From contig CM060990.1 in the NCBI GenBank assembly GCA_030765065.1, forward strand, positions 415,719,198-415,783,197: DNA of 64,000 nt, given 5' to 3'. Of this stretch, positions 28,682 to 61,664 are shown in pieces; positions within the stretch are counted from its first letter, which is position 1, and each line of letters starts with the position of its first letter. The position numbers and the translations under genes are program-made. Below the pieces are notes generated by a model. That model was not told the origin of the DNA. It made no database searches and was given only the letters and a program-made list of their open reading frames with translations. The DNA comes from Deroplatys truncata (taxonomy: Eukaryota > Arthropoda > Insecta > Mantodea > Mantidae).

Positions 28682-28685
28682 TATA

Positions 28686-29085
28686 CAGGATGGGCCATTT
28701 ATCTAAGTTGTAACTGTACAATACCTCCAAAACTAAGCGTCATAGAAATAACTGTCTTGAATAAAAGTTGCTTGATATTATGTCGGAAAGTAAATGCCGC
28801 TGGTCGCGTTTTATTTGGAGGACATTGTGATGGCCATTTTAGGGTCAATTTAATTTTTTTAAATGGGAACCTACCATTTTTGTGTGGTTTTCTCACTCCT
28901 CATAAAAAACTAAGCAACGTTTGTATAAAGAACTTTACAATTGTTCTTACACCAACATAAATAACAACGAAAATTCTTCATACGAAGAGCACAATGAATG
29001 GTTGGACCATCCATGGATGGTCATTTGAGGGTCAAGTTACGTTTCATAATTGCGAACCAAAATTTTTTATTTTATTTCCTTATTG
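28686..29085 (+). repeat. Left terminal module of the palindrome
   Basis: Begins CAGGATGGGCCATTTAT, followed by a CCTCCAAAACTAA block, GTCTTGAATAAAAGTTGCTTGA and TTTTAGGGTCAATTTAA, the same blocks in the same order as in the MITE half at 22,541-22,715. A second GGTCATTT.GAGGGTCAA..TT block near 29,017-29,040 suggests an internal duplication that the right end lacks. Confidence 0.8.
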
Positions 29086-30115
29086 CTCATCAGTAGGTTA
29101 TTTAGGAGAGAGCTGAGACACTTTTTTGGGCATATATGGGAAAGGATAGGGAAAACGAGGCTAGATGGGACGGTTCAAGGAGGAAAATGGGTTTATATGG
29201 GAGAGATAGGGATTACGACGACCGATACTATGCTAGAGAGGGTTGAAGGAGGGAAATACGTTTATATGGAAGAAATAGTAGAGAGGTGTTAGGCTAGACA
29301 GAGGTCGAGGAGTAGAGCATGGTTTATATGAAAGGTATAGGAAAACGAGGAGGGGTGTTAGGCTAGACAGAGTTGAAGGGTAGAGTATGTCTTTTATATG
29401 AGAGAGGTTGGGAACAGGAGGAGGGGTGTTAGGCTAGACAGAGGTTGAGGAGTACAGTATGGTTTATATGAGAGATATAGGAAAACGAGGAGAGGTGTTA
29501 GGCTAGGAGGGTTTAAGTATGCGTTTATAAGGAGAGACGAGAAAACGGAGAGAGATCCTATGTTAGGATACACAGGTGTTTAAAGCTAGAATGTGTTTTA
29601 TATAGGCTAGATAGGAAACCAAAGAGATACTCAGCTAGACAGGGGACAGGAGAGGAATGCGCTTTATGAGAGGTAGAGGATACGGGGAGTGGTGTTAGGC
29701 TAGACAGAGGTTGAGAGTAGAGAATGCGTTTATATGTATGAGAAGTATAGGAACAGGAAGAGGGGTGCTAGGCTAGACAGAGGTTGAGGAGTAGAGTATA
29801 GTTTATATGAGAGGTATAGGAAAACGAGGGGAGGTGTTAGGCTAGACAGAGGTTGAAAATAGAGTATGGTTTGTATGAGTGGTATAGGAAAACGAGGAGA
29901 GGAGTTAGACTAGACAGAGGTCGAGGAGCAGAGTATGGTTTATGTGAGAGTCATAGGTAAAGGCGAGAGGCGTTAGGCTAGACAGAGCTAGAGGAGTAGA
30001 GTATGGTTTATATGAGAGGTATAGGAACAGGAGGAGAGGTGTTAGGCTAGACAGATACTAAAGGAGTAGCAATAAGGGTTTATATACAGGAGAGATAGGG
30101 AATAGGAGGTGCTAG
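29086..30115 (+). repeat. ~69-bp tandem array, left arm
   Basis: About fourteen imperfect units built on GGCTAGACAGAGGTTGAGG, AGAGTATGGTTTATATGAGAG and TATAGGAAAACGAGG, with unit lengths around 65-70 bp. No coding frame persists across units. It lies between the terminal module and the 21-bp array and is mirrored in the right arm. Confidence 0.85.
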
Positions 30116-30204
30116 ACTTGAAAGCGACTTTAGAGGTGAACTTAGTGGAAAACTGTTTCATGTCAATGTTAGAACGCTAATTCTAGACATTCCCATCACG
30201 TAAC

Positions 30205-30520
30205 CTATTCAGGGAAAAGGTGACTCGTTCAGGGGAAAAAGGTGACTGCTCAGGGAAAAAGGTGGCCCACAAAGGGAAAAAGTTGACAAGCAAAGGGAAA
30301 AACGTGACCAGCAAAGGGAAAAAGGTGACCAGCAAAGGGAAAAATGTGACCAGCAAAGGGAAAAAGGTGACCAGCAAAGGGAAAAAGGTGACCTGCAATG
30401 GGAAAAAGGTGACCAGTAAAGGGAAAAATGTGACCAGCAAAGGGAAAAAGGCTACCACCAAAGGGAAAAAGGTGAGCCATAAAGGGAAAAAGGTGACCTG
30501 CAACGGAAAAAGCTAACCCA
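30205..30520 (+). repeat. 21-bp tandem array, left arm
   Basis: About fourteen units of a 21-bp motif, GTGACCAGCAAAGGGAAAAAG with small variants. Because 21 is a multiple of three, every frame stays open on both strands (for example GKKVTSK on plus and TFFPLLV on minus). These frames start at GTG or TTG rather than ATG, so coding is not supported. Confidence 0.9.
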
Positions 30521-30524
30521 CTAA

Positions 30525-31900
30525 CACTAACAGGTAAGTAATTCAGCTAGTATTGCAGGAAGGTGACTGGATCATAGCAGTGTATGATTTCACAGGTAAT
30601 TCAGCTAGTATCGTATGTATTTAGGCTAATTCATCTAGTAACTCAGGATAGATTCCAGATGTTAACTGCAACATGGCTCTGCATGATTTCACAGGTAATT
30701 CAGCTAGTATCGTAGGTATTTAGGCTAATTCAGGTAGTATCACAAGAGGATAGATTCTAGGGTTGGGTATAGCTTAGTGTCGTATTTCACAGGTAATTCA
30801 GAGAGCATCGTAGGTATTTAGGTTAATTCAAGTATCACAGACGTTTAGAGTAATTCAGCTAACATTACAGGAGAGTAGGTTCCAGGGGTTGGTTATAACG
30901 TAGTTTCGTATTTTACAGATAGTTCAGGTAATATCGTAAGTATTTGAGGTAATCGACATAGCTTCACAGATATTATTGATAATTTCGATCAGAGATTTGT
31001 ATCAGCTATTTAAGGTAAATGCAGGTGATTCAGGTTGTATCAATGGTATTTGAGTCATTTTAACAGGTAATTCATCTAGTATCATTGTTATTTAAGGCAA
31101 ACCAGATAGTATCACAGGTGCTCGTGCTAATTTAGAGCAGGAATTCGTATCAGAGCTAGTTAAGGTAATTTCACATGATTCGGGTAGTATCACAGATATT
31201 TAAGTCATTTTCACAGACAATTCAGCTAGTATCGTGAGCATTTAAGCTAATTCATCTAGTATCACAAGAGGCTAGATTCCAGAGGCTAACTGCATCATAG
31301 CTATGCATGATTTCACAGCTAATTCAGCTAGTATCGTAGGTATTTAGGCTAATTCAGCTAGTATCACAGGAGGCTAGATTCCAGGGTTGGGTATAGCATA
31401 GTTTCACATTTCACAGGTAATTCAGAGGGTATCGTAGGTATTTAGGATAATTCAAGTAACATAGGTGTTTAGAGTAATTAAGCAAGCATTACAGGAGGGT
31501 AGGTTCCAGGGGTTGATTATAACGTAGTTTCGTATTTTACAGATAGTTCAGGTAATATCGTAAGTATTTGAGTAATCAGCATAGTTTCACAGATGCTCGT
31601 AATAATTTCGATCAGAGAATTGTATCACAGCTATTTAAGGTAAATGCAGGTGATTCAGGTTGGATCAATGGTATTTGTGTCATTTTAACAGGTATTTCAG
31701 ATAGTGTCTAGGTATTTGGGCGATTCAAGCATCATAGGTGTTTGGAGTAACTCAGCTGGTATAACAGGAGGCTAGATTCAATGATCAGGGTTTCGTATCA
31801 GAGCTATTTAATGTAATTTCACTTGATTTGAGTAGTATCACAGGTTTTTAAGTCATTTTAACAGGTAATTCAGATAGTATCACAGGTTCTCATGGTAATA
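30525..31900 (+). repeat. ~30-bp array with ~620-bp higher-order repeat, left arm
   Basis: Units of about 30 bp built on AATTCAGCTAGTATC and GTAGGTATTTAGGCT. A longer pattern of about 620 bp repeats: the GATTCCAGA..TTAACTGCA block near 30,650 recurs near 31,270, and the following GGTTGGGTATAGC and GTTATAACGTAGTTTCG blocks recur too. No coding frame. Confidence 0.8.
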
Positions 31901-32274
31901 TAGAGAGTAATTAGATTATAAACATTTAGCATCCAACGTTACAGCACTTTATATACTTTTTCTAAATCTTACAAAGCTTTTATATGTTAAACAGTTAGTG
32001 GACGAGGCTGAGAGGGATAAACTGCCTGTGGGTTTACAAAATGAAAATCCATGCATCAACATACCTTAATTTAGTCCGTCGTACGTGCCTTTCCCCTTTT
32101 ATCTAGCTTGAGACTAGCACTAGGATTGCTCCTAATGGCAGGGTTAACACCTCCCCTTCCATCTTCTTCTTTCTTCATCGGACGGCTGCTAGTTGCATAC
32201 ACAGCACGTGAGTAAACTTAATTTTCTAAGATTGTAGACTCACGAGAAAATCTTTATCTTTAACTTCCATTCTC
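31901..32274. other. Unique spacer between arrays and PolB, left arm
   Basis: Non-repetitive sequence downstream of PolB with no clear reading frame; mirrored at 47,413-47,790. No unambiguous AATAAA was seen right after the stop codon. Confidence 0.5.
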
Positions 32275-35200
32275 TTAAGCACTGTTTGTAATACTGTAAT
32301 GTCCATACGCATAGGTAGTTACTCCATCCTCGGCAATAACTCTTTTATCATCAAAGGGATTCAATGTAATTTTATTCACTTGTACTGTGGTAATAGCGTG
32401 CTTTCGCGATAGGATTAGATTCATGGGCGTTCTTATGATTTCACAGGTTTTAAGACAGTCTGTATAGCTGTCAAACGAAATGTACTGCTTAATAGCGCTA
32501 CGTTTTATACCTTTAATCTTTTTTATCATTGATCTTTGAATATCTAAGGCATACATCTTAGGACGTAGTCCAACAAAGCGTAGGATGATTTTGCTATTAG
32601 GCTCATCTTTAAATTTTTCCAATACCTTCTTGTTCTGAGTAGAGTGGCATATATGATTGACAGGGTAATCAGATGTATCGAGATGCTCAAGAAAACGTAG
32701 CTTGTCCTGGTACACATCTTCAGTTGTTACACGATGAATGAATGAATCAGTGTCCATATACATAAGCTTCAGGTTTTCAGCTCCATAATAAGGCAACAAC
32801 ACGTCGTAATGATAGTTATACATTAATGTCTTGGAGATGTCCAACACACTCATACCAATGTATATTGGCTTGTTGAATACAATCTGACGAGAGGCCATAT
32901 GTACAGCAGCTAGATTAGCAGCATATATCGTCCTGTCGATAAACGTAGGCTTGGCGATCAGCTTCTCTAGAGTTTTTCATTGGTCACCAGTCGTATATCC
33001 ACACGGTTACGCAGGTTCTCCTTGGTTTTTCCAAACATGGCGTTGTTAAAGATTTTGTAGAGATCCTTCTCGAAATCATTTGCAGCTTGTTGTCGTAGCC
33101 TGTTGTTAAATTCCACATAAGGTTTCAACCACCGAGACTGTAGGAATTGTAGCACACGATGGATTTTTGTTAGTCGTAGTCCATGACTAAGAGCTTGCTT
33201 CAAAGCCATGTAATGCACTACATACTTCTTTCGAGGTCCAAGATGGGGTATCAGTTTCTTTGTAGACGCTTCCAATGGTTTCATACACTCTGGCAGGAAA
33301 GGTAGATCGTTGTGTAGATCGTGAAGTTCTGCAGGATACTCGATGTCGACTTCTAATGTGTACCCATGAGGATCATCTTCTTGTAGTGTTTCTAAGATGA
33401 TTTCTTCAGGCAAAACCCACTGAAATCCACCAAAAGGAAGGGCGTGACACATTGCCCACCCATATTGGTTATTAGCGTCCTCGTATGTGATAAATTGGGT
33501 TGGTCTCGACGGATCAAACTTCTCCATATAAGTGTTATTAGCCTCGGCATACCGATGAGAAACTTGGCATAAACCTCCTCTTATACCTGATTCCACCGTG
33601 AGTAGTTGATCATAATCTTGTAACAGCTCTAACTTAATTCCAGTATACAGTAACATAGCGTCCCATGTAAGTCCTGGAGAGGTAAAATAATGGGCAGGGT
33701 CAACTTTATGTGTTTTGAGGGTTTGCTCTCTGAACGTCTCAAAGACGTCAGCTAGAAGAAGTACATCCGAAGTTAAGTAGAGATCGCTGTACTCTCCCAG
33801 GTTTCTCACATTAAATAGCTCCCTTACATTTTTAGCATGATCGTAGTCAGTATCAGTAAGTTCTTCTTCATTTAATCTATTGTAGAAGGAGTCCTTAGTA
33901 GGCAAGCAGGTTTCGTTCAGGGCATCCCCTGACGTAACAAAGTCATATGGAAATACGCCCTTACGTGTCATCAACTTCAAATTGTCTTCTCCAAAGTACT
34001 TTAGTGTTTCTGGATATGAGGTTAGATTTTTTACCAACTTATCCAAGCTTGTACTGAGGAATCGGAAGCTATCCACAAATCGAAGCTTTATATCTCCTAC
34101 ATACTTGGTGAATGAGATATAGCTTTCTTCAGAGTTAGGAATTACCTCCACACGTTCACTTGTACAACCCAGCTCCTTGACAATGAAATGAGAGTCATAT
34201 CCGCTAAGCTTATGCGTGAGGACTGGTATATATTTAGGTGTTTTACAGGCTAAATTGCATTCATTATGAAGACTTCCACGATATTCACCGCTGATGTGAT
34301 CATGGTCGCGTACTTTATAGTTCTCTTCTGTAAAGCCTTTTCCACACAAGTAGCATGTCGTAGAAGACTCAAAATCCTTTTGCTGTTGATCCGTAAGTTT
34401 CAGAGGCTTGGCAGATTTGTATATGTCATCAATCATTTTTGCAAGGGATGTCAGGTACAGCATAAACTTCTGAGCAGCATCAGCACCACGATATACATGA
34501 GGTTGCTTAGGAAGACCAGTTTCAATATGTTCAACACTGGATGTAGGCTTCACGTAAACACAGAAGCTCATTGGTGTGTGCTCTTGATAAGGGGTTGTAT
34601 AGGAAGTTTCAGGATTGGGTATACACGTATGGCATGGAGTGAGAATACTCTCAAAATCAGCATAGATGACATAAGGTACTTTCAGCATCCTCTCAACATT
34701 TTTAAACTGTACAATTGATTTCTCCTTGGTAGGCATAACTACCCTTGCAACACCATGTTGATTACAAGTAGCTGCATGTTCTTGTAGTTTTTCCTGTCCA
34801 CTTCGGCCGCTCTGGTCATCAAAATGTGTAAAGCAGCGCTTACAAGTATAAACCCGTCCATTGTGGTTAGTTTTCTGGCGTCGAACGAGTTTCTCAAAAT
34901 TCTTTATATACACGTAGTGATGTTTTCCACTGCTGTCATTCAATAGTAGCAGGTCGCGATGTTCAGGTAGTTCAATATCAGCAACCTTTATCGGATACAC
35001 TTCGTGCTTCTCATCCAGCCCGAAAACGTTAATAGACATATTGTTAAGCTTCTCAAATTTAGGTATTTGAGAAAGTGGAGTAGGGTAGGAAACACAGCTG
35101 AAGTCGTACTTGTCTTGAAGTTGTTTGGATTTGTTCACACGCTGTGCATTCTTCTCTATGAATTTAGCTAATATAGAGTACATGAACCATTTCTCGTCGG

Positions 35201-35822
35201 TAAAGTTCTGAATGTTTATACACGCTTCTTTAGCTCCGACAGATGACGGTAGTGGTATGTAGCTACTTCCTCGTAACGGGTTGTACTTGTTGATACGAAG
35301 TCGAACTCCTTCCACAGCAAGCAAAGCCCAGCTGCTACCCTTAAGCTGAGACTCCTCCATTTCAGTCACCAATTTCTTGAATTTCACTTCCATCGTTGAC
35401 TCCAGATCAGTTTCCAGGAAAACAGCTTGATTCCGTGTTTTAAATGTTTTGTCACAGGTTTCTCCAATACTGTTAACAAATCGACACTCAACCAGCAGAT
35501 TAATTTTAACACTCTTATGAATGCTAAGCTCTTTATGCACAGCCTGGATTATACGTAGTTTTGCCTCTTGCAGATACATATTCAGGTCCTTAGGTGACTC
35601 GCATCGTATAAAATACGATTTTAATCGTCCTTCGAATGAAGTTTCGTATTCTTTCATATCACAGTCCTCCATTGTTGACAGCAACTGATTTTTAGTTGGC
35701 TCAAATCTTCTTTTCTTCTGAGGGCTGCTTATTTCACATATATCTTCGTGTCGCTGCCCCTTACAACCATCTTTGAAGGTTACATTACAATGTTTACATT
35801 TGAAGAGCTTCTTGCAGCTCAT
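32275..35822 (-). pseudogene. PolB with embedded EndoVII-like finger, left copy (one frameshift)
   Basis: A family B DNA polymerase of the Polinton/bidnavirus type. From ATG at 35,822 the frame runs 951 codons, then breaks in a run of five A (minus strand, 32,973-32,977) where the right copy has six, and continues at 32,898-32,275. Residue numbers are from this ATG. An N-terminal finger CKHC..H is at 9-25. Exo I (DFES) is near 388. A CYLCGKGF...DHDH..GEYRGSLHNEC module, the pattern of phage-type recombination endonuclease VII fingers, is at about 489-525. Exo II (GYDSHF) is near 540 and Exo III (YLTSD) near 681. Polymerase motif A (DANNQYGW) is near 782. Motif B (NNAMFGK) is near 925 and motif C (YMDTDS) near 1,022. 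Such enzymes replicate linear DNA from protein-primed ends. The total would be about 1,180 codons. Confidence 0.9.
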
Positions 35823-36086
35823 CTCGTGTCTTCTCTTGTCATAACCTCGGAGGAACTTCTTCCCACATTTTCCGCATGCATATCAAGTAGCGCTTGGAAT
35901 AATATCCTTATACGCTGAGTTATTCATCTTTATTCTTGATGTAATAACGTATTAATCACTGATCAATGAAATGTAGACCTCTTCACCTTGATACCACTTT
36001 AGAAAGCTGATTATTCTTGGAGAGAACACTATGTTAACACCTCAAGACTAATTAGCACAATGAAGTGCAATGCCCTAGATCACCAT

Positions 36087-36240
36087 ATTTATAGAGGGAG
36101 CACGAACCTTTTAGATCAATCATAAACTCGTTCCATAACCAGCTGTATATGATCGCTCAACGTGTATTAACCTCCCAGCCATATAACCTCAAGACCAGAG
36201 ACAGGATGTTTATGACGTCACACCCAGAGACAGGATGTCT
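36087..36240 (-). promoter_or_regulatory. PolB promoter region, left arm
   Basis: Mirror of the right-arm promoter: TATA-like element at about 36,087-36,096 and TGACGTCA at 36,213-36,220 between two copies of the same 14-bp repeat. The LTR element begins about 190 bp further upstream, so the promoter itself is intact. Confidence 0.55.
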
Positions 36241-36284
36241 GGCATCATCAAACACGTTTAAACTCGTCTCATAACTACCTGCTT

Positions 36285-36427
36285 ATGCTGTCTCACCAGC
36301 AAGAGAAGTATTCCCACACGGTCATTCAGACATGTATTTCAAATTCAAGCCTACCACCACTACCACCACCATCACCACCTATTGTACCAAGGTTAATTCA
36401 AGCTGTATTATCACAATACTTAAAAGT
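36285..36427 (-). repeat. ~280-bp tandem copy, left arm, split by the LTR element
   Basis: Counterpart of the outer right-arm copy, with a CCACCA run at about 36,350-36,380. It is interrupted at 36,427 by the LTR retrotransposon and resumes at 40,577 after the 4-bp duplication AAGT; the second tandem copy follows to about 40,960. Confidence 0.8.
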
Positions 36428-37403
36428 TGAGAGTGAAATAGTGTTGTATTTTTGTGTTTGTGTCCACACCACGTTGTGGATAATGTTTCTCACGTAATGT
36501 TGTTTACATTACGCGTGTAGCCATCTTGTGTGACGTCATACGTTGGTTGGTTCATTTGTTGTTTGTAGATTCCTCTGACGTAGCAATTGGTATCAGTTTT
36601 AGGTTATGTATATTGTCTTCCGGCTAGCTATTTAGGTAGACATTTAACTCTTGCAGGGTGTGAAGCGGAAAAGGAATCTTTTATCCAAAAATTACTAGTG
36701 AAGAAATGTATTTTATAATGTTTTATTGTCGAGCACGTGCACTAACACTTTCACAGATTTTGTCTAGATAATCGCCATACTGAAACTGTTTGTAATAACT
36801 TCTCACTTTTAACTCATGTACTTCAATTTTTGTATATAAGTGACTTTGTAATATTTTAGATCTTTAATGATTTTCACTGCGCGTAACTTGACGAACTGAG
36901 CGGCCAACGTGTAATGTGCGGACGATGTGTAATGCTTCGTGAATCCTGCCGAACTGGAGGACGATGTGTACTGTGTCGAGAATCTTGCCGAACTGGAGGA
37001 CGCTCTCTTTGAATCTACACTATTTATAGACTTGCCTCAAGCTACACCTAAAGATTATAAATGAATTACCATTGGCCAACAAAACGCGCCAACATTAGCG
37101 TCTATTTTACTATCCAATGAAAACCACTAATACATATTACTTTTATAGAATATTCTGGAAGCTTTCTTTACTGAAAAGGCGCGAAACATTACGTAACTTC
37201 CTGGTTCTCGGTAACGATAAACAACTCAATCCCTTTCTGCTTTATTGCGTTATTGTTGACAGTTTCAGTAGAGCCGTATATTATTATTTACCAATACTAT
37301 TTACAATTAATAAACCTCTGAAATCAATGTTACATAAAAATACATATTCATATTAAAATAATTATTCAAATTTGAGTAATTTGTGATACAAATTACCGTA
37401 TCA
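36428..37403 (-). repeat. 3' LTR of the gag-only element
   Basis: 976 bp, TG...CA ends. Internal flank on the plus strand is ATGCCCCACTAG, whose complement is a weak polypurine tract (CTAGTGGGGCAT) abutting the LTR. Confidence 0.95.
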
Positions 37404-38146
37404 TATGCCCCACTAGAAACATAATTATAAACATTTATAACTTGTTTGGAAATTTTATAATTTTGTTTTTAGTCTCCTAAATCTTGTAACACACGCTATT
37501 CACTTTCACTTAACACTTCACACGCGTTTAACACACGACATATGTTTTATCTCGCCACTACTTACTGGTTCTGGTTTAATTAATTTAGATATTAATCTGA
37601 TATCACAAAATTTTTTTTATAGCGAATATTTTACCCTAAATTATTTAATCACTGCTACCAAATTGTTTACTTTCTTAAGTTGTTGACAAAATTTATACAT
37701 TTAAGATTTTTTGTCATTGTTTAACATTTTTACCAAAGTATTCACCCTCTACTCAAATATTTACATCTCTTAAATCTAGACAATATTTCACCTTTTCTGT
37801 TTGCTACATAAGTATTTGTTTTATTTATTTTTACCAATTTTTGTTATTCTGAATTTTATAACAATACTCTTGGAATGGTATTTATGTACTTTACTTTAAT
37901 ATAACATCTTAAGTTTCAATCTTTGCATTCTTAATTTTTCAAATGTTGTTACAGTTACTAAAAATTTATTTATTTATTTATTTATTTATTTTTTTTTTTT
38001 TAAACATTTCTCTCTTTTTTTTTTTTATTTTATAATTTATTTCTCTTTTCAAATGATATATATATAATTAACCCTCTTACGTTCCAATACATTTCTCTGC
38101 AAGTCGTCTTTAACTATCCAGCATTTACTTTACATCTCATTGCTAT
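37404..38146. other. Non-coding AT-rich 3' part of the gag-only element
   Basis: About 740 bp of T-rich plus-strand sequence with (ATTT)n near 37,968-38,000 and homopolymer T runs. It occupies the position where pol would lie, and no pol homology was seen. Confidence 0.7.
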
Positions 38147-39265
38147 TTACCCTCCTGGATCAAATTGTGTGTGGCTAAACATTACTCGTAGCCGTAACCT
38201 AACCTTCAAATTTTTGTTCATGAACAACCTATTGTATTCATTTGAAATTTCATCTCCTGATAACATTTGGAAACAATCTACAGTTTCTTGAACAATACAT
38301 CTTTTAACAACTTTCATTTTCAACTCTTCTGCAATCTTTTTAACTTGAGAGTACTCTGACAAATCTGTACTAAACTGTACTGGACTGGAGTTTTCAATTT
38401 GAACATCTTGGTACAATTTACTTCTTTGCATTACTGACTCATTCTGTATTTCTGATATCTCCCCTCTGAAATTAACTTGCGCCTCATTTACATTTACATT
38501 CCTAACCTCTTTTATCTCTCTTATCTCCCTTGAAATACTACTCATTTGACTTCCTAACTCTGTGCATTCTACATTAACCTCACTTTTAGTATTAACCTCA
38601 CTTTCTTTGTTACCTATTTCCATGCTCCTGTCTAGCATTTTCTTTGAAATTTCTCCTATCTCACTTGCTATTACTTCTTCATTTTCATCTCTCATTTCTG
38701 GCATACTACCATCTAGCTTCGTAACTTTCTTTTCACTTTCTTCACTGCTTTGATCTACTTTTTGCTCTAATATATCATTACTCCTACCAATATTTTCAAT
38801 TGATTTCCTGTTTTGTTCAAAGCTTTTACCAATATCTCCCCTCAATTTCTCATTATTCTGAGTTAGTTTTTGTTCTAAACTCCTATCAATATCTTCCCTA
38901 TTTTGATCTATTTTCTTTTCTAATTTCTCATTATTCTTACAAATTTCTTCCCTTATACTCTGAGTTAATTTTTGTTCTAATTTCTCACTAGTCTTACTAC
39001 TATCTTCCCTTAATTCTTCCCTCAATTCCCTCTTCATATTTCTCAGCATTTCCATCATCACAATAGTATCAAGATTAACATTTCCTGCTATTCTACTCTC
39101 ACTTTCTGCACTAACATTTTCATCTTCAAACCCCAAAAAATCTGGGCTATTCCCTGTACTTTGTACTGGATCACAGCTAACTGTTACACTATCTCCCTCC
39201 ATAATTATTTCTTCTGTATTATTGGTAGCCATTGTTTTTATTATCCTACCGCTCCTCATTAACAT
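38147..39265 (-). CDS. Gag-like coiled-coil protein of the gag-only element
   Basis: Uninterrupted 372-codon frame from ATG 39,265, about 335 bp from the 5' LTR. The middle (about residues 75-240) is a long charged coiled-coil region with repeated EQKLTQ, NNEKL and EISKK-type heptads. The C-terminal third is less charged and ends FSHTQFDPGG. I see no zinc knuckle, protease or RT. Its placement after the primer site makes it the gag of the element; sequence alone does not identify it firmly. It may supply particles while RT and integrase come from a relative. An ATG slightly downstream (MATNNTEE, about 39,232) is an alternative start. Confidence 0.75.
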   Translation of the reverse strand: MLMRSGRIIKTMATNNTEEIIMEGDSVTVSCDPVQSTGNSPDFLGFEDENVSAESESRIAGNVNLDTIVMMEMLRNMKRELREELREDSSKTSEKLEQKLTQSIREEICKNNEKLEKKIDQNREDIDRSLEQKLTQNNEKLRGDIGKSFEQNRKSIENIGRSNDILEQKVDQSSEESEKKVTKLDGSMPEMRDENEEVIASEIGEISKKMLDRSMEIGNKESEVNTKSEVNVECTELGSQMSSISREIREIKEVRNVNVNEAQVNFRGEISEIQNESVMQRSKLYQDVQIENSSPVQFSTDLSEYSQVKKIAEELKMKVVKRCIVQETVDCFQMLSGDEISNEYNRLFMNKNLKVRLRLRVMFSHTQFDPGG

Positions 39266-39597: not shown

Positions 39598-39600
39598 ATT

Positions 39601-40576
39601 TGAGAGTGAAATAGTGTTGTATTTTTGTGTTTGTGTCCACACCACGTTGTGGATAATGTTTCTCACGTAATGTTGTTTACATTACGCGTGTAGCCATCTT
39701 GTGTGACGTCATACGTTGGTTGGTTCATTTGTTGTTTGTAGATTCCTCTGACGTAGCAATTGGTATCAGTTTTAGGTTATGTATATTGTCTTCCGGCTAG
39801 CTATTTAGGTAGACATTTAACTCTTGCAGGGTGTGAAGCGGAAAAGGAATCTTTTATCCAAAAATTACTAGTGAAGAAATGTATTTTATAATGTTTTATT
39901 GTCGAGCACGTGCACTAACACTTTCACAGATTTTGTCTAGATAATCGCCATACTGAAACTGTTTGTAATAACTTCTCACTTTTAACTCATGTACTTCAAT
40001 TTTTGTATATAAGTGACTTTGTAATATTTTAGATCTTTAATGATTTTCACTGCGCGTAACTTGACGAACTGAGCGGCCAACGTGTAATGTGCGGACGATG
40101 TGTAATGCTTCGTGAATCCTGCCGAACTGGAGGACGATGTGTACTGTGTCGAGAATCTTGCCGAACTGGAGGACGCTCTCTTTGAATCTACACTATTTAT
40201 AGACTTGCCTCAAGCTACACCTAAAGATTATAAATGAATTACCATTGGCCAACAAAACGCGCCAACATTAGCGTCTATTTTACTATCCAATGAAAACCAC
40301 TAATACATATTACTTTTATAGAATATTCTGGAAGCTTTCTTTACTGAAAAGGCGCGAAACATTACGTAACTTCCTGGTTCTCGGTAACGATAAACAACTC
40401 AATCCCTTTCTGCTTTATTGCGTTATTGTTGACAGTTTCAGTAGAGCCGTATATTATTATTTACCAATACTATTTACAATTAATAAACCTCTGAAATCAA
40501 TGTTACATAAAAATACATATTCATATTAAAATAATTATTCAAATTTGAGTAATTTGTGATACAAATTACCGTATCA
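39601..40576 (-). repeat. 5' LTR of the gag-only element
   Basis: 976 bp, same sequence as the other LTR as far as I could compare. It would carry the promoter for leftward transcription of the gag-like frame. Confidence 0.95.
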
Positions 40577-40979
40577 AAGTAAAAGCTTAAAAGGAAACCT
40601 AGAAGATTTTCCCCCTTATTTACTTAATTATTTCATGTTTTCATTCCCTTTTCAATTCTTCCTTTCCATCTTCCCACAGAAAGACCATTACATTTCACTG
40701 CAATCACGAGAAAAGCAAACGCTCATTCAGGCATATATTTCAAATTCAAAGCCTACCACCACCACCACCACCATCACCTATTGTGCCAAGGTTAATTCCA
40801 GCTGTATTATCACAATTCTTAAAGTAAAAGCTTAAAAGGTGACGTAGAAGATTTTCCCCCTTATTTACTTAATTATTTCATGTTTTTATTCCCTTTTCAA
40901 TTCTTCCTTTCCATCTTCTCACAGAAAGACCATTACATTTCACTAGAATCATGAGAAAAGCAATTTTTCCAGAGTTACA

Positions 40980-42835
40980 CAGATTCTAAGCTTCTAAATC
41001 GAACCCGGTAATACTTTTAATAAATGTATTTTAGCTCCCCAATATCAGTATCCACCATTTAATCTTTACTCGAACCTGATATGATCCATAAGCTTGAAGA
41101 TATATGAAATCACCCCTTCGGGATTCGATCTGAGTACTTTAAAGTAATATTTGTCATGATAACGATATTTAAGGACTAGATACTCTGTTTACGTTTACCT
41201 TGACATGTCTATCTAAATTAAATTACGAGTTATTAAATTTTTGCAAGTAAATTTCATTGAATCGGTATTCGAACCCAGAACATCAGGAACAAAATAATTT
41301 ATAATATTAGTCTGACATGTTAAACAAAGCTGTATGCAGTTACATCATCGATCTAAGTGATATATTCTAGTGTGCAGAGGAAAATGAAGGAAGTCATTAA
41401 AAGATGGGGAATCGAACCAAGCACAACTGATCGACAATTATATACAACATTAATCACTTAGTACAGGATCTATCAATCATGCTTTGGTGCACTCCTCTAC
41501 CTCACTTAGTTCCCGAGATAATGAAATTTCAAAAATTAAGGATCGAACCCAGGACGTCAGGTATCTAGTTATACATCCACAAGAAACTACCTAATGACGT
41601 ACTTGCAATAAAGTTTATTTGACGTCTTTATCTTAATTAATTTAGGAGTTATTAAATTTATAATTAAATTACATTTTATCGGTATTCGAACCCAGAACAC
41701 CAGAAACAAAATTATTTACAATATTAGTTTAATATGTTAAAAAGAGCTGTATACAGTTACAGCATCAATCTAAGTGATATATTCTAGTGTACAGAGAAAA
41801 ATTAAGGAAGTCATTAAAACTCGGGATTCGAACTAGGGACAACGATCCTTAATTTTTAAATCGCCATTATCTCGGAAACTAAGAAAGGTAGAGGAATGGA
41901 CCAAAGCATATTTGATAGCTGTTATAATGTGTAATTAATACTGTATATAATTTTCAATCAGTTATTCCTAGTTCGAATCCCGATTTTTAATGACTTCCTT
42001 AATTTTTCTCTGTACACTAGAATATATCACTTAGATTGATGCTGTAAGTGTATACAGCCCTTTGAAAATATCAAACTAATATTGCAAATAATTTTGTTCC
42101 TGGTGTTCTGGGTTCGAATACCGATAAAAGGTAATTTAATTTTAAATTTAATAACTCCCAAACTAATTAAGATAAAGACGTCAAATAAACTTTATTGCAT
42201 GTATGTCATTAGGTAGTTTCTTGCGGATGTGTAACTAGATACCTGACGTCCTGGGTTCGATCCTTAATTTTTAAACTTACATTATCTCGGGAACTAAGTG
42301 AGGTAGAGGAGTGCACCAAAGCATGATTGATAGGTTCTGTACTAAGCGATTAATGTTGTATATAATTATCGATCAGTTGTGCTTGGTTCGATTCCCCATC
42401 TTTTAATGACTTCCTTAATTTTCCTCTGTACACTAGAATATATCACTTAGATCGATGATGTAACTGCATACAGCTTTGTTTAACATGTAAGACTAATATT
42501 ATAAATTATTTTGTTCCTGGTGTTCTGGGTTCGAATACCGATTCAATGAAATTTACTTGCAAAAATTTAATAACTCGTAATTTAATTTAGATAGAGATGT
42601 CAAGGTAAACGTAAACAGAGTATCTAGTCCTTAAATAGCGTTATCATGACAAATATTACTTTAAAGTACTCAGATCGAATCCCGAAGGTGTGATTTCATA
42701 TATCTTCAAGCTTATGGATCATATCAGGTTCGAGTAAAGATTAAATGGTGGATGCTGATATTGGGGAGCTAAAATACATTTATTAAAAGTATTACCGGGT
42801 TCGATTTAGAAGCTTAGAATCTGTGTAACTCTGGA
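40980..42835. repeat. Palindrome core: ~140-bp modules ending in B-box-like motifs
   Basis: Sixteen GGTTCGA-type motifs occur, eight per arm, all oriented away from the axis. Right arm: near 41,970, 42,110, 42,254, 42,386, 42,525, 42,674, 42,729 and 42,799. Left arm mirrors: near 41,824, 41,682, 41,552, 41,407, 41,270, 41,120, 41,070 and 41,009. Spacing of the inner eleven is 130-149 bp. Three module types repeat in order, giving a ~420-bp higher-order unit. Several modules have an A-box-like TAGGTAGTTTC or AAGTGAGGTAGAGG upstream. None folds as an intact tRNA by eye. Confidence 0.75.
41839..41966 (+). other. Asymmetric central loop of the palindrome
   Basis: About 127 bp at the axis that is not self-complementary. 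It resembles the module at about 42,263-42,395 in direct orientation, so it behaves as one extra right-arm module and leaves the arms separated by a normal loop rather than joined perfectly. Confidence 0.8.
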
Positions 42836-42847
42836 AAAATTGCTTTT

Positions 42848-43370
42848 CTCATGATTGTAGTGAAATGTAATGGTCTTTCTGTGAGAAGATGGAAAGGAAG
42901 AATTGAAAAGGGAATAAAAACATGAAATAATTAAGTAAATAAGGGGGAAAATCTTCTACGTCACCTTTTAAGCTTTTACTTTAAGAATTGTGATAATACA
43001 GCTGGAATTAACCTTGGCACAATAGGTGATGGTGGTGGTGGTGGTGGTGGTGGTGGTGGTGGTGGTGGTGGTGGTGGTGGTGGTAGGCTTTGAATTTGAA
43101 ATATATGCCTGAATGAGCGTTTGCTTTTCTCGTGATTGCAGTGAAATGTAATGGTCTTTCTGTGGGAAGATGGAAAGGAAGAATTGAAAAGGGAATGAAA
43201 ACGTGAAATAATTCAGTAAATAAAGGGGAAAATCTTCTAGGTTTCCTTTTAAGCTTTTACTTTTAAGTATTGTGATAATACAGCTTGAATTAACCTTGGT
43301 ACAATAGGTGGTGATGGTGGTGGTAGTGGTGGTAGGCTTGAATTTGAAATACATGTCTGAATGTCCGTGT
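42848..43370 (+). repeat. Two ~280-bp tandem copies with (GGT)n tract, right arm
   Basis: A block starting CTCATGATTGTAGTGAAATG at 42,851 recurs from about 43,130. Each copy contains a TGTGATAATACAGCT..AATTAACCTTGG stretch followed by a GGT run. The first run (about 43,024-43,085) is about 20 triplets, far longer than its left-arm counterpart near 40,755-40,780. The second copy holds the empty site of the left-arm LTR insertion at 43,259-43,262. Confidence 0.8.
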
Positions 43371-43448
43371 GGGAATACTTCTCTTGCTGGTGTGACAGCA
43401 TAAGCAGGTAGTTATGAGACGAGTTTAAACATGTTTGATGATGCCAGA

Positions 43449-43600
43449 CATCCTGTCTCTGGGTGTGACGTCATAAACATCCTGTCTCTGGTCTTGAGGT
43501 TATATGGCTGGGGGGTTAATACACGTTGAGCGATCATATACAGCTGGTTATGGAACGAGTTTATGATTGAACTAAAAGGTTCGTGCTCCCTCTATAAATA
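43449..43600 (+). promoter_or_regulatory. PolB promoter region, right arm
   Basis: A TATA-like CTATAAATA lies at 43,592-43,600, about 160 bp before the upstream ATG. Some 120 bp further up, the palindrome TGACGTCA (CRE/ATF-type site) at 43,466-43,473 sits between two direct copies of CATCCTGTCTCTGG (43,449-43,462 and 43,478-43,491). All parts are conserved in the left arm. Function is inferred from motif and position only. Confidence 0.55.
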
Positions 43601-43758
43601 TGGTGATCTAGGGCATTGCACTTCATTGTGCTAATTAGTCTTGAGGTGTTAACATAGTGTTCTCTCCAAGAATAATCAGCTTTCTAAAGTGGTATCAAGG
43701 TGAAGAGGTCTACATTTCATTGATCAGTGATTAATACGTTATTACATCAGGAATAAAG

Positions 43759-43863
43759 ATGAATAACTCAGCGAATAATGATATTATTCCAAGCGCTACT
43801 TGATATGCATGCGGAAAATGTGGGAAGAAGTTCCTCCGAGGTTATGACAAGAGAAGACACGAG
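43759..43863 (+). other. Short upstream frame ending in TGA, in frame with PolB
   Basis: ATG at 43,759 opens 14 codons that stop at TGA 43,801-43,803. The 20 codons between that stop and the PolB ATG at 43,864 are in frame and encode a CGKCGKKF..H finger directly adjoining the PolB finger. The left arm has the same TGA near 35,882. The ancestral start was probably upstream, and the stop predates or was shared during arm homogenisation. An intron or readthrough is possible but not shown. Confidence 0.6.
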
Positions 43864-46800
43864 ATGAGCTGTAAGAAGCTCTTCAAATGTAAACATTGTA
43901 ATGTAACCTTCAAAGAAGGTTGTAAGGAGCAGCGACACGAAGATATACGTGAAATAAGCAGCCCTCAGAAGAAAAGAAGATTTGAGCCAACTAAAAATCA
44001 GTTGCTGTCAACAATAGAGGACTGTGATATGAAAGAATACGAAACTTCATTCAAAGGACGATTAAAATCGTATTTTATACGATGCGAGTCCCTAAGGACC
44101 TGAATATGTATCTGCAAGAGGCAAAACAACGTATAATCCAGGCTGTGCATAAAGAGCTTAGCATTCATAAGAGTGTTAAAATTAATCTGCTGGTTGAGTG
44201 TCGATTTGTTAACAGTATTGGAGAAACCTGTGACAAAACATTTAAAACACGGAATCAAGCTGTTTTCCTGGAAACTGATCTGGAGTCAACGATGGAAGTG
44301 AAATTCAAGAAATTGGTGACTGAAATGGAGGAGCCTCAGCTTAAGGGTAGCAGCTGGGCTTTGCTTGCTGTGGAAGGAGTTCGACTTCATATCAACAAGT
44401 ACAACCCGTTACGAGGAAGTAGCTACATACCACTACCGTCATCTGTCGGAGCTAAAGAAGCGTGTATAAACATTCAGAACTTTACCGACGAGAAATGGTT
44501 CATGTACTCTATATTAGCTAAATTCATAGGGAAGAATGCACAGCGTGTGAACAAATACAAACAACTTCAAGACAAGTACGACTTCAGCTGTGTTTCCTAC
44601 CCTACTCCACTTTCTCAAATACCTAAATTTGAGAAGCTTAACAATATGTCTATTAACGTTTTCGGGCTGGATGAGAAGCACGAAGTGTATCCGATAAAGA
44701 TTGCTGATATTGAACTACCTGAACATCGCGACCTGCTACTATTGAATGACAGCAGTGGAAAACATCACTACGTGTATATAAAGAATTTTGAGGAACTCGT
44801 TCGACGCCAGAAAACTAACCACAATGGACGGGTTTATACTTGTAAGCGCTGCTTTACACATTTTGATGACCAGAGCGGCCGAAGTGGACAGGAAAAGCTA
44901 CAAGAACATGCAGCTACTTGTAATCAACATGGTGTTGCAAGGGTAGTTATGCCTACCAAGGAGAAATCAATTGTACAGTTTAAAAATGTTGAGAGGATGC
45001 TGAAAGTACCTTATGTCATCTATGCTGATTTTGAGAGTATTCTCACTCCATGCCATACGTGTATACCCAATCCTGAAACTTCCTATACAACCCCTTATCA
45101 AGAGCACACACCAATGAGCTTCTGTGTTTACGTGAAGCCTACATCCAGTGTTGAACATATTGAAACTGGTCTTCCTAAGCAACCTCATGTATATCGTGGT
45201 GCTGATGCTGCTCAGAAGTTTATGCTGTACCTGACATCCCTTGCAAAAATGATTGATGACATATACAAATCTGCTAAGCCTCTGAAACTTACGGATCAAC
45301 AGCAAAAGGATTTTGAGTCTTGTACGACATGCTACTTGTGTGGAAAAGGCTTTACAGAAGAGAACTATAAAGTACGCGACCATGATCACATCAGCGGTGA
45401 ATATCGTGGAAGTCTTCATAATGAATGCAATTTAGCCTGTAAAACACCTAAATATATACCAGTCCTCACGCATAACCTTAGCGGATATGACTCTCATTTC
45501 ATTGTCAAGGAGCTGGGTTGTACAAGTGAACGTGTGGAGGTAATTCCTAACTCTGAAGAAAGCTATATCTCATTCACCAAGTATGTAGGAGATATAAAGC
45601 TTCGATTTGTGGATAGCTTCCGATTCCTCAGTACAAGCTTGGATAAGTTGGTAAAAAAATCTAACCTCATATCCAGAAACACTAAAGTACTTCGGAGAAG
45701 ACAATTTGAAGTTGATGACACGTAAGGGCGTAATTCCATGTGACTTTGTTACGTCATGGGATGCCCTGAACGAGACCTGCTTGCCTCCTAAGGACTCCTT
45801 CTACAATAGATTAAACGAAGAAGAACTTACTGATACTGACTACGATCATGCTAGAAATGTAAGGGAGCTGTTTAATGTGAGAAACCTGGGAGAGTACAGC
45901 GATCTCAACTTAACTTCGGATGTACTTCTTCTAGCCGACGTCTTTAAGACGTTCAGAGAGCAAACCCTCAAAACACATAAAGTTGATCCTGCCCATTATT
46001 TTACCTCTCCAGGACTTACATGGGACGCTATGTTACTGTATACTGGAATTAAGTTAGAGCTGTTACAAGATTATGATCAACTACTCATGGTGGAATCAGG
46101 TATAAGAGGAGGTTTATGCCAAGTTTCTAATCGGTATGCCGAGGCTAATAACACTTATATGGAGAAGTTTGATTTGTCGAGACCAACCCAATTTATCACA
46201 TACGAGGACGCTAATAACCAATATGGGTGGGCAATGTGTCACGCCCTTCCTTTTGGTGGATTTCAGTGGGTTTTGCCTGAAAAAATCAACTTAGAAACAC
46301 TACAAGAAGATGATCCTCATGGGTACACATTAGAAGTCGACATCGAGTATCCTGCAGAACTTCACGATCTACACAACGATCTACCTTTCCTGCCAGAGTG
46401 TATGAAACCATTGGAAGCGTCTACAAAGAAACTGATACCCCATCTTGGACCTCGAAAGAAGTATGTAGTGCATTACATGGCTTTGAAGCAAGCTCTTAGT
46501 TATGGACTACGACTAACAAAAATCCATCGTGTGCTACAATTCCTACAGTCTCGGTGGTTGAAACCTTATGTGGAATTTAACAACAGGCTACGACAACAAG
46601 CTGCAAATGATTTCGAGAAGGATCTCTACAAAATCTTTAACAACGCCATGTTTGGAAAAACCACGGAGAACCTGCGTAACCGTGTGGATATACGACTGGT
46701 GACCAATGAAAAAACTCTAGAGAAGCTGATCGCCAAGCCTACGTTTATCGACAGGACGATATATGCTGCTAATCTAGCTGCTGTACATATGGCCTCTCGT

Positions 46801-47412
46801 CAGATTGTATTCAACAAGCCTATATACATTGGTATGAGTGTGTTGGACATCTCCAAGACATTAATGTATAACTATCATTACGACGTGTTGTTGCCTTATT
46901 ATGGAGCTGAAAACCTGAAGCTTATGTATATGGACACTGATTCATTCATTCATCGTGTAACAACTGAAGATGTGTACCAGGACAAGCTACGTTTTCTTGA
47001 GCATCTCGATACATCTGATTACCCTGTCAATCATATATGCCACTCTACTCAGAACAAGAAGGTATTGGGAAAATTTAAAGATGAGCCTAATAGCAAAATC
47101 ATCCTACGCTTTGTTGGACTACGTCCTAAGATGTATGCCTTAGATATTCAAAGATCAATGATAAAAAAGATTAAAGGTATAAAACGTAGCGCTATTAAGC
47201 AGTACATTTCGTTTGACAGCTATACAGACTGTCTTAAAACCTGTGAAATCATAAGAACGCCCATGAATCTAATCCTATCGCGAAAGCACGCTATTACCAC
47301 AGTACAAGTGAATAAAATTACATTGAATCCCTTTGATGATAAAAGAGTAATTGCCGAGGATAGAGTAACTACCTATGCGTATGGACATTACAGTATTACA
47401 AACAGTGCTTAA
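43864..47412 (+). pseudogene. PolB with embedded EndoVII-like finger, right copy (two frameshifts)
   Basis: Mirror copy of the left polymerase with the same domain order. It breaks at two places different from the left copy: one base is missing at about 44,090, and a run of seven A at 45,653-45,659 replaces six. The left copy is in frame at both sites. This copy is in frame where the left one is broken (46,709-46,714). Motif A, motif B (NNAMFGKT) and motif C (YMDTDS) are present. The Exo III tyrosine of the left copy (DLYLTSD) is asparagine here (DLNLTSD). The remaining differences are scattered single residues. As it stands it would give truncated products. Confidence 0.9.
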
Positions 47413-47794
47413 GAGAATGGAAGTTAAAGATAAAGATTTTCTCGTGAGTCTACAATCTTAGAAAATTAAGTTTACTCACGTGCTGTGTATGCAACTAGCA
47501 GCCGTCCGATGAAGAAAGAAGAAGATGGAAGGGGAGGTGTTAACCCTGCCATTAGGAGCAATCCTAGTGCTAGTCTCAAGCTAGATAAAAGGGGAAAGGC
47601 ACGTACGACGGACTAAATTAATGTATGTTGATGCATGGCTTTTCATTTTGTAAACCCACAGGCAGTTTATCCCTCTCAGCCTCATCCACTAACTGTTTAA
47701 CATATAAAAGGTTTGTAAGATTTAGAAAAAAGTATATAAAGTGCTGTAACGTTGGATGATAAATGTTTATAATCTAATTACTCTCTATATTACC

Positions 47795-49165
47795 ATGAGT
47801 ACGTGTGATACTATCTGAATTACCTGTTAAAATGACTTAAATACCTGTGATGCAACTCGAATCAAGTGAAATTACATTAAATAGCTCTGATACGAAACCC
47901 TGATCATTGAATCTAGCCTCCTGTGATACTAGTTGAGTTACTCTAAACACCTATGATGATTGAATCGCCCAAATACCTAGACACTATCTGAATTACCTCT
48001 TAAAATGACACAAATACCATTGATACAATCTGAATCACCTGCATTTACCTTAAATAGCTGTGATTCAAAACTCTGATCGAAATTATTACGAGCATCTGTG
48101 AAACTATGCTGATTACTCAAATACTTACGATATTACCTGAACTATCTGTAAAATACGAAACTACGTTATAACCAACCCCTGGAACCTACCCTCCTGTAAT
48201 GCTTGCTTAATTACTCTAAACACCTATGTTACTTGAATTATCCTAAATACCTACGATACCCTCTGAATTACCTGTGAAATATGAAACTATGCTATACCCA
48301 ACCCTGGAATCTAGCCTCCTGTGATACTAGCTGAATTAGCCTAAATACCTACGATACTAGCTGAATTAGCTGTGAAATCATGCATAGCTATGATGCAGTT
48401 AGCCTCTGGAATCTAGCCTCCTGTGATACTAGATGAATTAGCTTAAATGCTCACGATACTAGCTGAATTGCCTGTGAAAATGACTTGAATACCTGTGATA
48501 CTACCCGAATCATGTAAAATTACCTTAACTAGCGCTGATACGAATTCCTGCTCTAAATTAGCACGAGCACCTGTGATACTATCTGGTTTGCCTTAAATAC
48601 CAATGATATTAGATGAATTACCTGTTAAAATGTCTCAAATACCATTGATACAATCTGAATCACCTGCATTTACCTTAAATAGCTGTGATACAAATCTCTG
48701 ATCGAAATTATCAATAATATCTGTGAAGCTATGTCGATTACCTCAAATACTTACGATATTACCTGAACTATCTGTAAAATACGAAACTATGTTATAACCA
48801 ACCCCTGGAACCTACCCTCCTGTAATGCTAGCTGAATTACTCTAAACGTCTGTGATACTTGAATTAACCTAAACACCTACGATACTCTCTGAATTACCTG
48901 TGAAATACGACACTAAGCTATACCCAACCCTAGAATCTATCCTCTTGTGATACTAGCTGAATTAGCCTAAATACCTACGATACTAGCTGAATTACCTGTG
49001 AAATCATGCAGAGCCATGTTGCAGTTAGCATCTGGAATCTTTCCTGTGTTACTAGATGAATTAGCCTAAATACATACGATACTAGCTGAATTACCTGTGA
49101 AATCATACACTGCTATGATCCAGTCACCTTCCTGCAATACTAGCTGAATTACTTACCTGTTAGTG
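47795..49165 (-). repeat. ~30-bp array with ~620-bp higher-order repeat, right arm
   Basis: Reverse-complement counterpart of the left array, with the same higher-order organisation. Confidence 0.8.
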
Positions 49166-49174
49166 TTAGTGGGT

Positions 49175-49485
49175 TAGCTTTTCCCGTTGCAGGTCACCTT
49201 TTTCCCTTTATGGCTCACCTTTTTCCCTTTGGTGGTAGCCTTTTTCCCTTTGCTTGTCACATTTTTCCCTTTACTGGTCACCTTTTTCCCGTTGCAGGTC
49301 ACCTTTTTCCCTTTGCTGGTCACCTTTTTCCCTTTGCTGGTCACATTTTTCCCTTTGCTGGTCACCTTTTTCCCTTTGCTGGTCACGTTTTTCACTTTGC
49401 TAGTCAACTTTTTCCCTTTGTGGGCCACCTTTTTCCCGGAGCAGTCACCTTTTTCCCCTGAACGAGTCACCTTTTCCCTGAATAG
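49175..49485 (-). repeat. 21-bp tandem array, right arm
   Basis: Mirror of the left 21-bp array with the same unit order and only a few substitutions, for example near 49,390-49,400. Confidence 0.9.
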
Positions 49486-49559
49486 GTTACGTGATGGGAA
49501 TGTCTAGAATTAGCGTTCTAACATTGACATGAAATAGTTTTCCACTAAGTTCACGTCTA

Positions 49560-50589
49560 AAGTCGCTTTCAAGTCTAGCACCTCCTATTCCCTATCTCTC
49601 CTGTATATAAACCCATATTGCCACTCCTTTAGTATCTGTCTAGCCTAACACCTCTCCTCCTGTTCCTATACCTCTCATATAAACCATACTCTACTCCTCT
49701 AGCTCTGTCTAGCCTAACGCCTCTCTCGTTTACCTATGACTCTCACATAAACCATACTCTGCTCCTCGACCTCTGTCTAGTCTAACTCCTCTCCTCGTTT
49801 TCCTATACCACTCATATAAACGATACTCTATTTTCAATATCTGTCTAGCCTAACACCTCCCCTCGTTTTCCTATACCTCTCATATAAACTATACTCTACT
49901 CCTTATCCTCTGTCTAGCCTAGCACCCCTCTTCCTGTTCCTATACTTCTCATACATATAAACGCATTCTCTACTCTCAACCTCTGTCTAGCCTAACACCA
50001 CTCCCCGTATCCTCTACCTCTCATAAAGCGCATTCCTCTCCTGTCCCCTGTCTAGCTGAGTATCTCTTTGGTTTCCTATCTAGCCTATATAAAACACATT
50101 CTAGCTTTAAACACCTGTGTATCCTAACATAGGATCTCTCTCCGTTTTCTCGTCTCTCCTTTTAAACGCATACTTAAACCCTCCTAGCCTAACACCTCTC
50201 CTCGTTTTCCTATATCTCTCATATAAACCATACTCTACTCCTCAACCTCTGTCTAGCCTAACACCCCTCCTCCTGTTCCCAACCTCTCTCATATAAAAGA
50301 CATACTCTACCCTTCAACTCTGTCTAGCCTAACACCCCTCCTCGTTTTCCTATACCTTTCATATAAACCATGCTCTACTCCTCGACCTCTGTCTAGCCTA
50401 ACACCTCTCTACTATTTCTTCCATATAAACGTATTTCCCTCCTTCAACCCTCTCTAGCATAGTATCGGTCGTCGTATTCCCTATCTCTCCCATATAAACC
50501 CATTTTCCTCCTTGAACCGTCCCATCTAGCCTCGTTTTCCCTATCCTTTCCCATATATGCCCAAAAATTGGCCCAGCTCTCTCCTAAAT
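49560..50589 (-). repeat. ~69-bp tandem array, right arm
   Basis: Reverse-complement counterpart of the left array, same unit order, with scattered single-base differences. Confidence 0.85.
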
Positions 50590-50843
50590 AACCTACTCTC
50601 ATCACAACATAAACAGCTTTTTACAAACCATTTTCTAACGACAAAATAACATACAGAATGTTGGTTTCCATTTAAAAAAATTAAATTGACACTAAAATTA
50701 CCATAATAACGTCCTACAATCAAAACACGACTAATCACATTTTGTTTCCCCCATAACACCAAAAAACTTTTATTAAGGACGTCCTTTCTACTAGGTTTAG
50801 TTTTGGAGACATTCTACAGTATCAACTTAAATGGTCCATCCTG
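50590..50843 (-). repeat. Right terminal module of the palindrome
   Basis: Read inward it starts CAGGATGGACCATTTAAG and carries the CTCCAAAACTAA, TTAATAAAAGTT, GATTAGTCGTGTTTTG and GTCAATTTAATTTTTTTAAA blocks. It is shorter than the left end by roughly 130 bp and visibly more diverged from it than the arm interiors are from each other. Confidence 0.8.
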
Positions 50844-50859
50844 TATATGGGATTTTAAT

Positions 50860-55532: not shown

Positions 55533-55537
55533 TAAAA

Positions 55538-61565: not shown

Positions 61566-61664
61566 CTAAACAATGTAGTAGTAATATTGTATTTTAAGAC
61601 AGTGTTCCCCTTACAAAAAAGGACACGTGATAACTATAGAAGTGAAGTCAGAAACACCAGTGTA

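Follow-up and report, generated by a model that had tools for sequence, protein, structure and literature searches.

A high-copy palindromic element with mirrored PolB genes and Polinton-type ends in the genome of the mantis Deroplatys truncata

We analysed 64,000 nucleotides of the genome of the mantis Deroplatys truncata (assembly GCA_030765065.1, contig CM060990.1, positions 415,719,198 to 415,783,197 of the forward strand; hereafter the window), which hold a mobile element consisting of two long inverted arms, each with a gene for a family B DNA polymerase (PolB). This element is probably one copy of a high-copy palindromic family of Polinton/adintovirus-type ancestry that has kept PolB and the ends, replicates through a hairpin and is inserted by a borrowed integrase. 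An earlier note, made from the letters of the window, had described a single mobile unit with two mirrored PolB genes. This description is borne out by many independent copies with the same ends, target-site duplications (TSDs) in 11 of 11 copies and 13 PolB pairs. The window copy begins with AGTAGG, ends with CCTACT and is flanked by the perfect 6-bp TSD CTCATC. It lies within an unrelated miniature inverted-repeat transposable element (MITE), and its left arm is interrupted by an insert flanked by long terminal repeats (LTRs). Its limits and main parts are as follows.

29092..50597, no strand: whole palindromic element, 21,506 bp including a later insert of 4,149 bp; the arms stop exactly here, with the TSD outside
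29086..29091, no strand: left TSD, CTCATC, from the reading of the end and the empty site in MITE paralogues
50598..50603, no strand: right TSD, CTCATC, on the same evidence
28682..29091, no strand: left part of the unrelated split MITE, outside the element
50598..50847, no strand: right part of the split MITE, outside the element, starting with the second TSD copy
29092..36426, plus strand: left arm, outer part, 98.3% identical to 43259-50597 inverted
40576..41846, plus strand: left arm, inner part, with the duplicated block and the B-box-like core
41847..41956, no strand: central spacer of the window copy, in which the loop of other copies is missing
41957..50597, minus strand: right arm, uninterrupted, which also shows what the left arm is like with the LTR insert removed

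Self-comparison of the window confirms that the arms are real. The outer alignment (29092-36427 against 43259-50597) has 118 substitutions and 7 gap columns in 7341 columns. Beyond the insert the arms resume at 40576-41846 and 41957-43263, and the inner part (40755-41846 against 41957-43048) is 96.7% identical. Subtraction of the coordinates gives a size of about 17.35 kb before the LTR insertion. With arms of about 8.6 kb, the suggested 'inverted dimer of a linear ~9-kb replicon' is a fair description of the anatomy. From the outside inwards, each arm contains a short end, arrays, an outward-pointing PolB, a TATA-like stretch, a duplicated block and a B-box-like core. Most of the ordered set that the earlier note had listed for both arms, including the endonuclease VII (EndoVII)-like finger of PolB, is therefore present, and only its 'terminal module' falls outside the unit.

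That module is made up of the two parts of the MITE which the element has split. A search of the host assembly (4.29 Gb, 818 contigs) with 28600-29300 gave 12588 first-look candidates, of which 40 copies were scored; the 39 that are not the window copy start at query positions 26-102 and stop at 489-494, query position 493 being window position 29092. That list also contains 33 second matches, mirrored and nearby; the split module is hence a palindromic MITE of about 650 bp, and the 77% likeness of the 'terminal module' between the arms is the MITE's own palindromy. We joined the window flanks with one CTCATC, and the resulting 654 nt align over their full length, at 84-85%, with all three MITE copies fetched from the 39; for 20 bases on either side of the junction the alignments are ungapped. 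The element thus inserted cleanly into the MITE with a 6-bp TSD. We rejected the module as the element's own ends, as MITE copies elsewhere occur without the element. Long palindromes are a known type of assembly error, but an assembly artefact or a local inverted duplication is highly improbable here and the artefact was rejected: the arms differ by their substitutions and by one LTR insert with its own TSD, the insertion into the MITE is clean, and other copies share the same ends and have TSDs.

These other copies were sought in the assembly and found, so the unit cannot be set aside as lacking relatives with the same ends. The assembly has 627 exact occurrences of the 20-bp end motif, 306 in forward and 321 in reverse orientation, and a reversed control gave 0 in both. 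Positions are known for the first 100 of these ends, all on contigs that we call C1-C4. Seventy of them pair up as 35 neighbours less than 25 kb apart, a forward end followed by a reverse one. The opposite order does not occur within 100 kb; the remaining 30 are without such a partner, one of them lying 2.7 kb before another forward end. The 35 pairs span 1.65-20.1 kb with a median of 16.2 kb, and 22 kb is accordingly not supported as the native size, the window copy being lengthened by its insert. Extrapolation of 65 loci per 100 ends gives a rough estimate of some 400 loci. Two short spans between exact ends, C1:254124214-254125865 (1.65 kb) and C4:17114026-17118163 (4.1 kb), are possibly internally deleted derivatives.

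With the outermost 209 bp as query, 40 places were scored of 3240 candidates, and 38 of the 40 (the window's two included) start at the element's first base. Eleven elements, again with that of the window, have both ends among these matches; their lengths are 9.4-21.5 kb, and all of them have a perfect 6-bp TSD (60 bases were read per end in the ten others), one of which was read after a 2-base shift of an end that had been set from a shortened match. The 2-kb centre of the 9.4-kb copy is free of inverted repeats, and this copy seems to have undergone internal rearrangement. The 11 TSDs favour C, A and T at positions 3-5 (7, 8 and 9 of 11), a possible insertion-site preference. Searching with the window PolB, we obtained 48 scored matches of 25857 candidates, 26 of which form 13 mirrored pairs. 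These are always minus then plus and hence outward-facing, with 2.1-5.3 kb between the matches. At C1:162.19-162.21 Mb, both ends and both PolBs were located; the PolB match lies 4203 bp from the end on one side and 4204 bp on the other.

The two arms are homogenised within each element: they are nearly identical to each other, and differ from those of other elements. In seven pairs fetched on both sides, the PolB arms differ at 1, 7, 5, 2, 0, 0 and 4 of 2850 sites, against a median difference of 44 when 29 copies are compared in all 406 pairs. None of 20000 shuffles reached the observed sum of 19 (shuffle mean 416). The centres were compared in nine fetched stretches between PolBs (L047-L055), seven of which share the same loop motif. 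This central loop is found in either orientation, as expected of a palindrome that inserts either way round. In L048, L049, L050 and L052, the four copies with a fully read centre, the arms are 99.6-100% identical over 243-265 nt, which is the limit of the stretch, and enclose a spacer of 70-115 nt, a related loop that contains GCCGGCAT...ATGTCGGC and is itself a small stem. L047 has the loop in an asymmetric centre, and the motif is found neither in L054, which was fetched off-centre, nor in L055, which is centred between its PolBs. The window copy is also without the loop motif; central deletions of long palindromes would explain this.

Both PolB copies of the window are frame-broken and are represented by the following pieces.

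32967..35822, minus strand: left PolB, N-terminal 951 codons, with a C2H2-like finger (by eye), the EndoVII finger, exonuclease motifs and polymerase motifs A and B
32275..32898, minus strand: left PolB, separate C-terminal piece in another frame, with motif C, YMDTDS
44082..45725, plus strand: right PolB, first frame piece (547 aa)
45706..47412, plus strand: right PolB, second frame piece (568 aa)

Pfam recognises Endonuclease_7 and DNA_pol_B_2 in these pieces. In an alignment of 51 proteins (the window's and 50 chosen among 120 listed homologues), the sites that we take to be the exonuclease motifs and motifs A, B and C of the polymerase are conserved. For the 950-aa piece, AlphaFold gave a model with a predicted local confidence (pLDDT) of 85.7. 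Among solved structures this model best matches phi29 polymerase with terminal protein (11% identity, TM-score by target 0.45, E 1e-8), and among viral models it best matches densovirus/bidnavirus, adintovirus and adenovirus polymerases. Judged by sequence and model, PolB is of the protein-primed type, with priming itself being a prediction. A sequence search of the PDB gave 0 matches, and a phage search gave just short EndoVII-finger matches in 3 Vibrio phage records. Homologues number 984 matches, 120 of which were listed at 38-56% and include proteins of Halyomorpha, Rhodnius, Ischnura, Macrosteles, aphids, two spiders and a fly. Among the 48 best-scoring genomic matches, 42 lie in a 1225-codon frame, 41 of them without a stop in the match and one with a stop inside. 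Because of these open frames and a pN/pS (ratio of nonsynonymous to synonymous differences) of 0.147 among 29 PolB copies (321 pairs with more than 25 differences), we conclude that PolB is under purifying selection for function.

PolB remains, as the earlier note had it, the only recognised enzyme of the window element. A Pfam scan of 23 frames, comprising the PolB pieces, the open reading frame (ORF) of the insert and, from the left arm and centre, 18 more frames (one of these being the C-terminal PolB piece again), revealed no rve integrase; this negative covers the scanned frames of the window element. The same scope applies to packaging ATPase, protease and capsid genes, none of which was recognised, and no superfamily 3 helicase was recognised in the window element. 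The small frames gave just sub-threshold, repeat-type matches in two cases (PAAR in a frame of the 21-bp array, Dicty_REP/DUF3439 in a frame of the GGT run).

The host also harbours ordinary Polintons. PF03175 matches at first appeared to be relatives of the element but were rejected as such, since 8 fetched copies showed no BLAST similarity to the window PolB. One copy of this type that we followed is an ordinary Polinton with an rve+Chromo integrase and a dUTPase, AGTAGT ends (AGTAGTATATACC) and the 6-bp TSD GTTAAC. Polinton-type integrase genes with open frames are many in the host and fall into groups of about 76-100%, 66-69% and 65-66% identity to one query; an example locus is C3:71460895-71478142 (L009, L010, L076). 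At least two PolB-bearing types exist besides that of the window, without DNA similarity to each other. An IMG/VR contig (L081) encodes a PolB of the element's type, 37% identical, beside an rve integrase and an A32-like ATPase, and no long inverted repeat is present in the 11.5 of 17.4 kb seen.

We propose that the ancestor was Polinton-like and would have lost everything but PolB and the ends needed for integration, while its terminal repeat grew into the whole molecule. PolB would initiate synthesis from a protein primer at the AGTAGG ends. In the protein-primed replication of adenoviruses, the displaced strand pairs its terminal repeats. Here the displaced strand might fold on itself into a hairpin with a stem of about 8.6 kb that would remake a double-stranded origin at the open end, an adenovirus-like panhandle taken to its limit. 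Copying round the loop would then restore the full palindrome and erase differences between the arms in every cycle. As the whole strand would pair with itself, identity of the arms is predicted at each insertion, which matches the observed arms. A role in the jumping-back step of protein-primed replication has been proposed for repeated end motifs (PMC8097293, in excerpt). The linear copy could be inserted by the integrase of the resident ordinary Polintons, with which it has AGTAG ends and a 6-bp TSD in common. After insertion the arms would decay independently, as in the window copy, where the 118 substitutions indicate such drift. We infer both the replication route and the integration in trans.

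Several points weigh against this scheme. The element is known from integrated genomic copies, and the role of a terminal protein is predicted. Use of a foreign integrase is suggested by the common AGTAG, the length of the TSD and co-residence, and the ends of element and resident Polinton diverge after 5 bp, as judged from the one Polinton read at both ends. Only 24 of 76 PolB sites in the PF03175 set have a scored integrase match within 15 kb; our search with 113 scored matches would therefore have overlooked a divergent integrase belonging to the element itself. In a second viral relative (L082), three proteins were scanned and neither an integrase nor an ATPase was matched. Among the PolB matches listed, 22 of 48 (the window copy and 21 others) have no partner. 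The scored matches are moreover the best-scoring ones and favour intact copies, and the outermost 2.7 kb or so of intact copies lie outside the reading. In one of the seven pairs, the arm L020 differs from its partner at 4 sites but from another copy (L021) at just 1, and the identical pair L040/L041 is matched without difference by a further copy, L042. Finally, the differences between the window arms are clumped (index of dispersion 4.0 in 13 bins), which leaves room for some gene conversion that could keep arms alike.

Gene conversion after insertion, as in the arms of human Y-chromosome palindromes (PMC3723533, in excerpt), could in principle homogenise the arms of the same family without any hairpin intermediate, and the clumping would agree with it. 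We regard this explanation as unlikely, as it leaves the common defined ends, the TSD and the central loop unexplained. Furthermore, the window arms have come to differ by 1.6%, and the LTR insert has stayed confined to the left one.

It is also conceivable that the element integrates by itself. PolB, its EndoVII-like finger or an unrecognised gene would then perform end processing, hairpin resolution and integration. That PolB is the sole gene recognised would fit, as would the EndoVII match in all five relatives scanned (above the curated cut-off in 2) and the finding that 0 of 48 window-type PolB matches lie within 100 kb of the 113 scored integrase matches, which were taken from 11715 candidates in a narrow search. 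However, a 6-bp TSD together with AGTAG ends is the hallmark of the rve integrase of Polintons, of which the host has many open-framed copies. An EndoVII-type match is also found in the PolB of ordinary, integrase-bearing Mavericks, namely those of Spodoptera with weak matches of E 0.02 and 0.32 (PMC5803895, in excerpt), and the finger is thus not special to the palindromic element. Self-sufficient integration therefore seems rather doubtful to us. In a related proposal, the element is a one-gene hairpin replicon: PolB would copy it by protein priming and, through its EndoVII-like finger, also resolve the cruciform or hairpin at the conserved loop, and insertion would be carried out by PolB or a borrowed integrase. 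Such a replicon would represent a new class of self-synthesising transposon in which one protein and a palindrome do the work of a whole Polinton. We give this only a modest chance.

We favour Polinton-type ancestry with a borrowed integrase, and the distance from Polintons that the earlier note implied is not upheld, given that ends, TSD and PolB are all of Polinton type. Like Polintons/Mavericks, the element has a protein-primed-type PolB, AGT-type ends, a 6-bp TSD and a similar size. Unlike them, it has no recognised integrase, ATPase, protease or capsid gene (in the window element, which was scanned), its terminal repeat is the whole element and its PolB is doubled in mirror image. Vertebrate Mavericks have (AGT)2//(ACT)2 end motifs and perfect 6-bp TSDs, and the terminal inverted repeats of intact ones measure 46-1447 bp with a mean of 402 (PMC8097293, in excerpt). 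We file the element as a Polinton-derived variant rather than as a Polinton because integrase and virion genes were sought in the window element and not found. No palindromic PolB-only Polinton is described in the titles and opening lines of abstracts of the literature searched. The PolB fold is shared with adintoviruses, which carry virion and integrase genes; these companions of PolB were not recognised in the window element. The top structural matches of PolB are densovirus/bidnavirus PolBs. Elements of the Foldback type and palindromic MITEs resemble ours in being nearly all inverted repeat around a short loop and in having several copies with TSDs. Ours is far longer, with its own replicative polymerase in each arm, a 6-bp TSD and AGTAGG ends, whereas to our knowledge no PolB is encoded by Foldback elements or palindromic MITEs. 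Bidnaviruses have a PolB of polintovirus origin and inverted terminal repeats, and are single-stranded DNA viruses with capsid and superfamily 3 helicase genes (PMC4061559, in excerpt). Neither of these two genes was recognised in the element, which is in addition integrated with a TSD.

The remaining features of the element and its surroundings are given below.

29224..30109, plus strand: array zone 1, units of about 68 bp, mirrored at about 49581-50504
30208..30512, plus strand: array zone 2, 21-bp units, mirrored at 49179-49482
30537..31887, plus strand: array zone 3, units of about 100-150 bp, mirrored at about 47807-49153
41265..42538, no strand: core with 12 B-box-like GGTTCGANYCC matches (at most 1 mismatch) about 140 bp apart, in orientations mostly mirrored about the centre
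36427..40575, no strand: LTR-flanked insert of 4,149 bp, in the left arm only, with direct repeats of about 976 bp; borders by eye
22537..22897, no strand: short palindromic relative of the split MITE, 361 bp

The TATA-like stretch is a candidate seen by sight near 43593. The core holds 12 of the 22 B-box-like matches of the window, the whole-window expectation from shuffling being 3.6. These mirrored boxes are candidates for binding sites or internal RNA polymerase III signals; tRNA and Rfam scans of 28000-51500 gave 0 matches. A (GGT)20 run at 43025-43084 in the right arm has a shorter counterpart near 40755 in the left arm, a slippage difference between the arms. The insert at 36427-40575 is probably a young non-autonomous LTR element. 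Its direct repeats are alike at 979 of 980 bases over the reported match, it is flanked by the 4-bp TSD AAAG (36423-36426 and 40576-40579) where the right arm is without an insert, and its one ORF of 372 aa has no Pfam match; no recognised enzymes are encoded. Further along, at 54699-63884, the window contains a Gypsy-type retrotransposon with reverse transcriptase, RNase H and integrase in 59100-61565. Its direct repeats hold an 88-bp (2 x 44) tandem array that is short in one repeat and has about 10 units in the other.

Polintons have been seen as a link between DNA viruses, plasmids and transposons. Hundreds of loci with the ends described here persist in one animal genome, and the loci open to checking have mirrored arms. 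An abundant element pared down to PolB and its ends, with a terminal repeat enlarged to the whole genome of the element, would demonstrate that the tasks of replication and integration can be divided among different elements. It would also make the proposed single-stranded, protein-primed replication of Polintons testable, as a palindromic element predicts a hairpin intermediate and arm-to-arm correction, and the arm statistics agree with this prediction.

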